Source: an uncultured Armatimonadota bacterium (GTDB lineage Bacteria; Armatimonadota; Armatimonadia; Armatimonadales; Armatimonadaceae). Taken from it: 64,000 nucleotides of DNA. The translations under genes and the position numbers were made by a program. The stretch spans positions 1-64,000 of the forward strand of contig CAIVZM010000029.1 of NCBI GenBank assembly GCA_903910385.1. Reading direction: 5' to 3'. The notes beneath the pieces were generated by a model that saw nothing but the letters and a program-made list of their open reading frames with translations, searched no databases and was not told the DNA's origin. Positions within the stretch are counted from its first letter, which is position 1, and every line of letters begins with the position of its first letter. Of the stretch, positions 59,326-62,007 are shown piece by piece.

Positions 59326-60453
59326 ATGTCGTATGAAGGTAAGGCCGCTATTCTGAGCGAGGCGGGCAAAGATGCCGAGATCGTCGATATTACCATTGAT
59401 AATCCGGGACCGAACGAAGTTCTGGTGAAGCTGGTGGCTTCCGGGGTATGCCACACGGATTTGACCGTCAAAGTCCTGAACGGGAACGGGATGAAATTCC
59501 CGATTGTGCTCGGACATGAAGGCGCAGGCATCGTCGAAGCAGTAGGGGAGGGCGTAACGCACCTGAAGCCGGGCGACCCGGTAGTTATCGCCTATCGCGC
59601 CCCCTGCGAAGTCTGCCCCGCCTGTCGGCGTGGCGACCCCCGACACTGCTACGCCGCATTGCGTCCCGGTCTGCGTATTCGCCGTAAGTCCGATGGCGCT
59701 TACTGCTCGCAGGTCTTGCGATGCGGAACCTTCGCAACGCGCACAGTCGTTCATGCCAAAGCAGCGATCAAGATGCCGGAAGAAATGCCGCTGGAAAAGG
59801 CGTGCCTGATCGCCTGCGGCGTGGTGACCGGTGTCGGCGCGACGATGAACACGACGAAGGTATGGCCGGGCGCTTCGGTCGCGGTCGTCGGCTGTGGCGG
59901 CGTCGGTCTGTCGGTGATTCAGGGCGCGAAAATTGCGCATGCGAAGCAAATCATTGCCGTCGACATCAACGACACCAAGTTACAATGGGCGCGGGATTTC
60001 GGCGCGACACACACGGTCAACGCTCGCGAAGTAGGCGGCGACCCGGTAGCCACGGTTCGAAATCTGGTCACCGATCAGTGGCCGGGCTATGAGGGCGGCG
60101 TCGACTTCGCTTTTGAGGCGACGGGGCGCATGGCATGTATCGAACAGGCGGTCCGTATGGTCAACTATAACGGAACGGCAGTTACTATCGGCTTTCCGGC
60201 TTCCACGGATGAAGTGACGTTGAGTGTCGGCAATATCGACACCGGCGTTTACTGGAACAAGGTCAATCTGACCGTCTCCCACTGCGGCGATGCGCTTCCC
60301 TCAACGGACTTCCCCTTGCTGGCGCAACTCTACCTGCAGGGACAGTTAGACCTGGATCGCATGGTGACGCAGGAAATCGAACTGGGCGATGTCGAAGCCG
60401 CTTTCCACATGATGGAAGCGGGCAATGTCATCCGCTCCGTCATCCGTTATTAA
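59326..60453 (+). CDS. Zinc-dependent alcohol dehydrogenase, class III-like
   Basis: 375 residues. Medium-chain dehydrogenase with two zinc sites: catalytic ligands Cys42 and His64 (GHEGAG) with a third Cys in CLIACGVVTGVG, and four structural cysteines Cys94, Cys97, Cys100 and Cys108 (CEVCPACRRGDPRHC). The NAD-binding motif VAVVGCGGVGLSVIQ is present. The sequence is of the type called formaldehyde or mycothiol/alcohol dehydrogenase in databases, but a specific substrate cannot be assigned; the upstream esterase D-like gene makes S-formylglutathione chemistry a possible alternative. It has GGGGAGAG nine bases before the ATG. A terminator follows at 60471. Confidence 0.93.
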   Translation: MSYEGKAAILSEAGKDAEIVDITIDNPGPNEVLVKLVASGVCHTDLTVKVLNGNGMKFPIVLGHEGAGIVEAVGEGVTHLKPGDPVVIAYRAPCEVCPACRRGDPRHCYAALRPGLRIRRKSDGAYCSQVLRCGTFATRTVVHAKAAIKMPEEMPLEKACLIACGVVTGVGATMNTTKVWPGASVAVVGCGGVGLSVIQGAKIAHAKQIIAVDINDTKLQWARDFGATHTVNAREVGGDPVATVRNLVTDQWPGYEGGVDFAFEATGRMACIEQAVRMVNYNGTAVTIGFPASTDEVTLSVGNIDTGVYWNKVNLTVSHCGDALPSTDFPLLAQLYLQGQLDLDRMVTQEIELGDVEAAFHMMEAGNVIRSVIRY

Positions 60454-60470: not shown

Positions 60471-60505
60471 AAAACGGACGAAAAGTATCTCTTTCCGTCC
60501 GTTTT
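60471..60505 (+). terminator. Terminator after the alcohol dehydrogenase gene
   Basis: AAAACGGACGAAAAG (60471-60485) pairs with CTTTCCGTCCGTTTT (60491-60505), one mismatch, loop TATCT. The 3' arm is U-rich at its end. Confidence 0.9.
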
Positions 60506-60574: not shown

Positions 60575-60604
60575 TTGACAGGCTGGCAGGGATCAGGGTA
60601 AACT
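60575..60604 (+). promoter_or_regulatory. Promoter of the ankyrin-protein gene
   Basis: Perfect TTGACA (60575-60580), 18-base spacer, TAAACT (60599-60604). Transcription would begin near 60611, giving a leader of about 137 bases. Confidence 0.8.
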
Positions 60605-60610
60605 AAAGTT

Positions 60611-60747
60611 GGCTTTGCAGGAAGCCGCCTGTCCGTGGAAAGGACTTGAGTCCCCCTGTATGGTTTGCAACGCTTCAGGTTCATTTTTGAACCTCCTTTG
60701 CGCCCGATTCTGACGGACACCGGGCATGTCATCGAAGGAGGTTTTTC
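60611..60747 (+). ncRNA. Structured mRNA leader, possible riboswitch or translational switch
   Basis: Within the leader, GGCTT/AAGCC (60611-60626) and a GGAC-TTGA-GTCC hairpin (60642-60653) are local stems. TGTCCGT (60630-60636) pairs with ACGGACA (60713-60719) to close a larger fold. AGGTTCA (60677-60683) pairs with TGAACCT (60688-60694). The last stem shares bases with AACCTCCTT (60690-60698), which is exactly complementary to the ribosome-binding site AAGGAGGTT (60735-60743) six bases before the ATG. Two exclusive states, anti-SD bound or free, are therefore possible. No known riboswitch consensus was recognised. Confidence 0.6.
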
Positions 60748-62007
60748 ATGACTACTCGTCACCTTCCCGTTCGTCCTAACTTCGACCAGCTCAAGCGGCA
60801 GGCGAAGGAACTACTGGATGCTATCCGCCGGGGCGATCCTGAGGCGCAAACGGAATTTTCCGCCCACTATCCCCGACCCCTTGACCCTGCTGAAGCGCGT
60901 CTGGTTCATGCGCAACTGGCTCTGGCGCGGAGTTATGGCGTTCGCTCCTGGCTACGGCTCAAACTCGCCTGCCAGATGACCGAAGCGATATGGAGCGATG
61001 ATGCCGCCACCGTTCTCAAACTGGTACAGGATCATCCAAATCTCTTGCAGGAAGATGCCCGGGGCGTCGCCGGGAACTGGGGGCCGCCGATGTCCTATGC
61101 GGCCAATGTCGGGCGGAACAATATTGTCCAGATGTTGCGAGATCGTGGCGCAGAGGATGTACAGTACGCTTTTGAACGCGCCTGCCTGCAGGGAAAACTG
61201 GATACGGCGCGGTTATTGCACCGCATGGGGGGAGCCCCGATGCGTGGTTCTATCATGGGGCCATGCGAAACGCTGAGCGGGGAAGGGCTTGCCCTGTTAC
61301 TGGAACTCGGCGCGGAACTCGGCGCGGAACTCTGCGATGCCGAAGGCGACCGAAGCGCTCCTATCGGCCTCATATTACAGACATACTGCCGTAAACCGCA
61401 AGGGAAACATCGCTGTCTGCAAATCCTGGTCGAGCATGGCGTTTCCCTGCCCGACACTGCTCCGATGGCTCTGCATCAGGGGCGAATCGATCTCCTTGAG
61501 CGTCTCCTCACCCATAACCCTGACCTTCTGAACCAGACTTTTTCTCATGAAGAAATTTACCCACTGGAACTGGGATGTAGTGCCGATCATTCTCTTGCGC
61601 TCCATGGAACTCCTGTGGCGGGAGGGACACTGCTCCACCTTGCGGTAGAATTCGACGAAATCGAAATTGCCAACTGGTTGCTGGAGCAGGGAGCGGATGT
61701 CGATGCAAGGGCGGCGTTGGATGCCGATGGTTTCGGTGGACACACCGCCCTCTTTGGTTGTGTCGTTTCTCAGGCATACGTGGCGAACAGTCGGCGGGAT
61801 GATAGTTTTGCACGTCTGCTTCTGGATTGGGGCGCCGATACCCAGGTAGTCGCCTCTCTACGGAAACGCCTGCGGTTTGTCCCTGATGAGACGGAACGAA
61901 TCTACCGTGATGTCACCCCGCTGATCTGGGGACGCCGATTCCAGAATCAGGATTGGATCAATCCTTCGGTGATGGCGTTGCTGGAGGAGAGAACTGGTAA
62001 CGCCTGA
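60748..62007 (+). CDS. Ankyrin-repeat protein with an N-terminal RPNFDQLKxQAKELL helix pair
   Basis: 419 residues. The first 75 residues (LPVRPNFDQLKRQAKELLDAIRRGDPEAQTEF) are a recognisable helical module that precedes ankyrin repeats in proteins of several soil phyla. Five or more ankyrin repeats follow (for example GPPMSYAANVGRNNIVQMLRDRGA, then GGTLLHLAVEFDEIEIANWLLEQGADV and a repeat with GHTALFGCV). It probably binds other proteins in the cytoplasm; no enzyme motif is seen. It has a strong promoter and a long leader that can pair with its own ribosome-binding site. It ends 6 bases before the convergent priA end. Confidence 0.88.
   Translation: MTTRHLPVRPNFDQLKRQAKELLDAIRRGDPEAQTEFSAHYPRPLDPAEARLVHAQLALARSYGVRSWLRLKLACQMTEAIWSDDAATVLKLVQDHPNLLQEDARGVAGNWGPPMSYAANVGRNNIVQMLRDRGAEDVQYAFERACLQGKLDTARLLHRMGGAPMRGSIMGPCETLSGEGLALLLELGAELGAELCDAEGDRSAPIGLILQTYCRKPQGKHRCLQILVEHGVSLPDTAPMALHQGRIDLLERLLTHNPDLLNQTFSHEEIYPLELGCSADHSLALHGTPVAGGTLLHLAVEFDEIEIANWLLEQGADVDARAALDADGFGGHTALFGCVVSQAYVANSRRDDSFARLLLDWGADTQVVASLRKRLRFVPDETERIYRDVTPLIWGRRFQNQDWINPSVMALLEERTGNA

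Follow-up and report, generated by a model that had tools for sequence, protein, structure and literature searches.

A pseudoknotted leader RNA predicted to cover the ribosome-binding site of genes that share an N-terminal domain in Armatimonadota and other phyla

Introduction

Ribosomal proteins repress their own synthesis by binding their leaders, SAM-II and preQ1-II are translational riboswitches in which a pseudoknotted aptamer captures the Shine-Dalgarno (SD) sequence, and in the yjdF-type riboswitches one RNA class is tied to one gene family. Here, we describe a leader RNA from an uncultured Armatimonadota bacterium (contig CAIVZM010000029.1, positions 1 to 64,000; this stretch of 64,000 nucleotides is referred to as the window), where a first-pass annotation had marked the region before an ankyrin gene as having the layout of a translational riboswitch or a temperature switch. 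As with the ribosomal-protein leaders, a structured 5' leader stands only before the genes of one protein family and its predicted fold can mask the translation start, but the partner is not ribosomal and autogenous binding is putative. Like SAM-II and preQ1-II, the element has conserved core bases and a pseudoknot core joined directly to SD sequestration, whereas it has no Rfam match, has its helices in another order and did not turn up ahead of genes for biosynthesis or transport. The coupling of a single RNA class to a single protein family is shared with the yjdF type, but there is no Rfam match in sequence or structure, and what is coupled to the RNA is an N-terminal domain (N-domain) fused to several effector domains.

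Materials and methods

Leaders of 26 genes were aligned using MAFFT without structural guidance (alignment A1). A covariance model holding only helices P1, P3 and P5 (R1) was run over 291 Armatimonadota genomes, and 100 distinct matches were aligned to it (alignment A2). The E-values of custom models are rough, and draft and metagenome-assembled genomes supplied many of the homologues. The sample from other phyla consisted of plasmid records only. For the SD helix (P6), the 18 nt before P5 were paired in each copy with the sequence that runs from P5 up to the start codon. A second model (R2) was used for the alternative leader architecture, variant II.

Promoter and transcript start

The intergenic gap before the ankyrin gene measures 295 nt. 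At 59326-60453, upstream of the leader, lies an alcohol-dehydrogenase-like gene, and a terminator-like hairpin (~60472-60505) separates the two. The gap holds one good promoter, as had been noted beforehand: a sigma-70-type sequence on the forward strand (60575-60604), with TTGACA at 60575-60580, an 18-nt spacer and TAAACT at 60599-60604, matching the consensus at 10 of 12 positions. Transcription is predicted to start at ~60611, which is the 5' edge of the element and not downstream of 60700, where a start would by the earlier reasoning have spoken against a regulatory leader. Among 99 homologues, -10-like hexamers cluster at -10 to -6 and -35-like hexamers at -34 to -29 from the first base of the model; since the position of the promoter is fixed just 5' of P1, the element is predicted to form the 5' end of the mRNA. 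The leader between promoter and start codon carries its SD sequence in a conserved helix.

Architecture of the leader

All leader features lie on the forward strand. P1 is a hairpin, GGCUU-(UGCAGG)-AAGCC, at 60611-60626 (60611-60615 with 60622-60626), in which 4 of 5 pairs have two-sided changes and 84% of cells are paired in 100 homologues. Its loop contains CAGG (60618-60621), the 5' strand of the pseudoknot PK1, which pairs with CCUG at 60655-60658; all four pairs covary, 86% of cells are paired, and the variants include CUGG/CCAG, GGGG/CCCC and CAGU/ACUG. P2 is a long-range stem of 7 pairs between UGUCCGU (60630-60636) and ACGGACA (60713-60719), the latter inside the P5 loop, with 98.5% of its cells paired and covariation in 5 of 6 modelled pairs. 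A joining strand, GGAAA (60637-60641, consensus GG[A/G]AA), whose columns are invariant or nearly so, connects P2 to P3, a GGAC-UUGA-GUCC hairpin at 60642-60653 (60642-60645 with 60650-60653) with 99.7% of cells paired and covariation in 4 of 4 pairs. P5, formed by GCCCG (60702-60706) and CGGGC (60721-60725), crosses P2 and has 97% of cells paired, with all 5 pairs covarying.

Two further pairings concern the ribosome-binding site. The hairpin P4, AGGUUCA-UUUU-UGAACCU at 60677-60694 (60677-60683 with 60688-60694, 7 pairs), is an anti-anti-SD, the alternative partner of the anti-SD strand AACCUCCUU at 60690-60698. This strand is the exact complement of the SD segment AAGGAGGUU at 60735-60743, with which it forms the 9 pairs of P6, a helix that covaries. 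P2, P3, P4 and the exact complementarity to the ribosome-binding site had all been proposed in the first-pass annotation and were recovered here, P2 and P3 being conserved with compensatory changes in about 100 homologues. P1, PK1 and P5 were absent from that account.

The leader had been said to fit no known riboswitch consensus, which agrees with Rfam 15: even at E <= 5, no match was obtained for the window leader, 14 homologous loci, the loci from other phyla or variant II, and relaxed thresholds returned chance matches only, mostly on the upstream terminator. Nothing relevant was found in the literature on riboswitches or structured RNAs with ankyrin or glyoxalase, and no further copies of the element were found in the window's own genome.

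Covariation among homologous leaders

The folding energy of the window leader is unexceptional against shuffled sequence (z = -0.98). Single-sequence folding was set aside as proof of the structure, which was sought in homologues instead. Besides the window's own genome, 21 genomes of the phylum proved to contain an orthologue of the ankyrin gene, and most of the full-length ones have a strikingly similar leader. In A1, 92.6% of pairs across P1, PK1, P2, P3 and P5 were standard in the 26 leaders, and two-sided changes occurred in 15 of 24 pairs, which none of 500 shuffles equalled; with the helices slid, 32-40% of pairs were standard.

The R1 scan of the 291 genomes listed 118 matches, with up to 8 in one genome; they are spread over 75 genomes and 44 of 156 genera. 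Standard pairs made up 93.5% of the pair cells in A2, compared with 31-40% when the helices were slid out of register (100 copies). Two-sided changes affected 22 of 24 pairs, a result that 0 of 500 shuffles reached, and 313 cells were compensatory against a shuffled mean of 85. For P1, P3 and P5 these counts favour the model, since R1 guided the A2 alignment. A1 is free of such bias, and the covariation of P2 and PK1, which lie outside R1, is not built in. The search for covariation in orthologous leaders, proposed at the outset as a check, was positive, and the secondary structure of this cis-regulatory leader is supported by covariation. We regard it as highly probable, on comparative grounds, that the leader is a conserved structured RNA controlling translation.

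This pattern also bears on a structured leader that would need no ligand and would set a constant low level of translation or of mRNA stability. Such a leader would suit an element at the 5' end of the transcript with an SD paired in much of the nested ensemble, but the 5' core lies far from the SD and is much more conserved than a passive stem needs, and two crossing helices covary across phyla, which makes this explanation unlikely.

Masking of the ribosome-binding site

Duplexes of P6 had a mean energy of -13.7 kcal/mol with their own partners and -9.5 kcal/mol with swapped ones, and the own partner was better in 89 of 97 copies; examples are ACCUUUGUGCG/CGCAUGGAGGU and UCGACCUUUGUUG/CAACGGAGGUUGA. 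As the anti-SD just 5' of P5 pairs with the SD just 3' of it, P6 is an extension of P5. By this comparison P6 is a conserved SD-masking helix, and P5 is, in the predicted fold, locked to P2 by the pseudoknot.

Nested folds of the window leader, calculated without pseudoknot energies, gave -48.7 kcal/mol for P2 with P4 and -47.7 kcal/mol for P5 with P6; the two states are within 1 kcal/mol, which is what a switch needs. Of the 13 leaders of the closest orthologues, nearly all, about 12, were predicted to form P4. As a family-wide feature the anti-anti-SD was ruled out (mean z -0.32 over 99 leaders), and the competition between anti-SD and anti-anti-SD that had been proposed for this leader therefore stands for the window and these closest orthologues, but not for the family. 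A ribosome-binding site that is always open, which would have been at odds with regulation, is not what the folds predict: in the nested fold of the window leader, P6 pairs the SD with a probability of 0.33 at 37 C and 0.51 at 55 C.

The same values weigh on the temperature switch. An RNA thermometer would likewise have a helix that masks the SD, but P6 is strong (-17.6 kcal/mol as a duplex), its predicted probability increases between 20 and 55 C, and within the nested-fold ensemble, with pseudoknots left out, the SD did not open and its helix did not melt over this range. Sequence conservation, moreover, lies in the core and not in a weak SD helix. The suggested temperature switch is thus unsupported, and we consider a thermometer very improbable.

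The N-terminal domain downstream

The gene behind the leader (60748-62007, forward strand) encodes a protein of 419 aa with a basic N-terminal domain and ankyrin repeats; the N-domain is encoded by 60748-60987 (~residues 1-80, four predicted helices). Genes following the element share the same first ~78 residues (LPxRPxLxxLKxQAKxLL...LxDAQLxxAREYGFxSWxxLKxxVE) whatever comes after them, and the C-terminal parts vary, with ankyrin in 63 of 77 and AHSA1, TIGR03067, DUF1835 or no match in the others. The first description, regulation of an ankyrin protein, puts the link in the wrong place: the constant partner of the RNA is the N-domain, not the repeats.

An N-domain profile found 139 genes among the matches listed for the same 291 genomes, and 114 of them have an R1 match directly upstream. 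Seen from the RNA, 114 of the 118 listed R1 matches directly precede an N-domain gene found independently by the protein profile and one more (L141) precedes a divergent N-domain, which brings the count to 115 of 118. The other three are two 5'-half matches, one of which has no gene downstream, and one weak match before a trigger-factor-like gene. Among the 25 listed N-domain genes without a genome-scan match, 8 have a weaker or cut-off element, 7 have the second architecture and 10 have none detected, some of these 10 sitting at contig ends. The weakest elements (L163, L164 and L180) scored 19-21 bits.

Several individual loci deserve mention. One genome (G080; family f9, genus g58) carries eight copies, including L052, L070, L075, L093, L110, L134, L141 and L146, each ahead of its own N-domain paralogue, a lineage-specific expansion. 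At L142:2122-2236 (reverse strand), promoter-like sequence and the 5' portion of the element (P1, GUCCGCGGGAAGGGCUGAGUCC) occur without an N-domain gene, ~250 nt upstream of a threonyl-tRNA-synthetase-like frame; this 5'-half match may be a remnant or an unrelated leader. In genus g87, L163:2088-2164 and L164:462-538 have, ahead of their N-domain genes, a shortened element with the conserved core ACCUGCGGAAAGGGUUGAACCCGCC and without a recognisable SD helix, which makes it a reduced variant. N-domain genes without a detectable element in family f9 (L024, L033, L034 and L168) are apparent losses and useful natural controls.

No Pfam or NCBIfam model exists for the ~78-aa N-domain, which has a weak likeness to Glyoxalase_8. 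Its predicted structure has four helices at fair confidence (pLDDT 84.5); no relative was found in the PDB by fold or profile. Per 100 residues, the N-domain has a net charge of +3.1 and the remainder of these proteins one of -4.1; the N-domain value exceeds the other in 113 of 113 proteins. K/R is near-invariant at positions 16 and 20, and position 61 is mostly R. The AxxxGFxSWxxLK stretch recalls what we take to be helix-turn-helix (HTH) motifs. The domain, which many bacterial ankyrin and VOC proteins have in common, deserves a family model of its own.

The strict association with one protein domain points to autogenous control rather than to a small-molecule riboswitch. In a true riboswitch, the P1/PK1/P2/P3/P5 core would bind a small molecule or ion and close (or open) P6, and the cell would answer this ligand, which might be a toxic compound or a signal, with the N-domain proteins. 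The compact double-pseudoknot core with nearly invariant unpaired and joining bases resembles known aptamers, SD sequestration is attached directly to it, the element is found in several phyla, a single genome having as many as 8 copies, and the VOC/glyoxalase and AHSA1 partner domains would suit such a role. Among the 118 listed matches, however, none clearly precedes a transporter, an enzyme or another gene without the N-domain, where several gene families of one pathway might be expected, and the effector domains, mostly ankyrin repeats, have no evident common metabolic theme. Several gene families are not strictly required of a riboswitch, as some classes control a single one. We hold a ligand-binding core to be the serious rival, though less likely than autogenous control. 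Of the riboswitch layout proposed at first, the conserved leader controlling access to the ribosome-binding site is strongly supported, while a strict riboswitch with a small-molecule ligand is a candidate reading.

Other phyla and a second architecture

The element and the N-domain were also found together in Gemmatimonadota, Alpha- and Betaproteobacteria and Actinomycetota. All seven plasmid-borne non-VOC N-domain loci have the element immediately ahead of the gene (33-61 bits); their plasmid-class replicons belong to Methylosinus, Variovorax, Burkholderia (two), Nonomuraea and Gemmatirosa (two). Two-sided changes recur in Variovorax (CAAG/CUUG in PK1 and C-G for U-A in P2) and in Gemmatirosa (UCGG/CCGA in PK1). 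Using blastn, the only convincing distant matches to the Burkholderia leader were the Variovorax and Methylosinus leaders. Viral contigs searched with two core patterns and phages searched for the N-domain yielded nothing. That the element stands before genes with the same N-domain in at least four phyla makes it very likely to be a genuine element of translational control.

N-domain-VOC/glyoxalase genes have a different leader of ~60-80 nt (variant II), GUAGG-GCGC-hairpin-GGGC..GCCC-CCUAC...GUAG.GCGCC-AUG, with the pattern GUAGGGCGC...CCUAC...GUAGUGCGCC-AUG and no evident SD. It was found in 7 of 7 Armatimonadota N-domain-VOC genes (L166, L167, L170, L171, L174, L175 and L177), which are exactly the strong matches of R2, and on Alphaproteobacterial plasmids (L183, L184, L185, L188, L189 and L190; hosts Bosea, Phyllobacterium, Rhizobium and Sinorhizobium). 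In Rhizobium johnstonii 3841, the VOC gene with the variant II leader is RL_RS31485 on pRL11. One of three weak R2 matches coincides with a variant I element (G199), which hints at homology of the two leader types. The strand completing P1 seems to adjoin the start codon, and variant II may tentatively be seen as a strand-permuted relative; its helix-level covariation is weak, as the outer helix and P3 hardly vary, so the structure is likewise tentative.

Discussion

Taken from sequence comparison, the leader is a previously uncatalogued, pseudoknotted class able to cover the ribosome-binding site. It would form a compact 5' fold, with P1 and its loop pseudoknot PK1, P2 enclosing P3 and P5 crossing P2, followed by P6. 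When the P2-P5 pseudoknot core is stabilised, P6 would close and translation would be off; when it is not, the anti-SD would be released, in the window also captured by P4, and the gene translated. The folded core is probably the OFF state, an assignment of OFF and ON made from geometry only.

Autogenous binding of the N-domain to a new class of leader offers what we judge the best explanation, with a probability of roughly 0.55, because the RNA has been retained while effector domains were exchanged, and no complete element was found without an N-domain. The basic, HTH-like N-domain would bind the folded leader and repress its own synthesis, by analogy with ribosomal proteins. Its basic charge is only suggestive of leader binding, and for the N-domain as the trigger, which we consider the likeliest one, we see about even chances. 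The main weakness of autogenous control is that a 5' gene end inherited while 3' domains are swapped could mimic the linkage at least in part; in addition, some metabolite riboswitches (yjdF) also precede a single gene family, no annotated or solved nucleic-acid-binding relative of the N-domain was found, and 10 of the 139 listed N-domain genes of the phylum show no element.

It is conceivable, if somewhat speculative, that a cassette unknown until now, made up of promoter, double-pseudoknot leader and RNA-binding N-domain, has spread through at least four phyla in fusion with ankyrin, VOC, AHSA1 and TIGR03067, in two RNA architectures of which the second is apparently compact or strand-permuted, and might provide each fusion with ready-made autogenous translational control.

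A well-supported RNA class in several phyla, absent from Rfam and the searched literature, adds a new regulatory RNA fold and offers the first clue to the function of an N-terminal domain that is common in bacterial ankyrin and VOC proteins but lacks annotation. Should the N-domain not bind, the RNA would count as an orphan riboswitch, and its ligand would show to what the N-domain proteins respond; if the N-domain does bind RNA, leader and domain would together make up a portable, self-contained translational repressor module.
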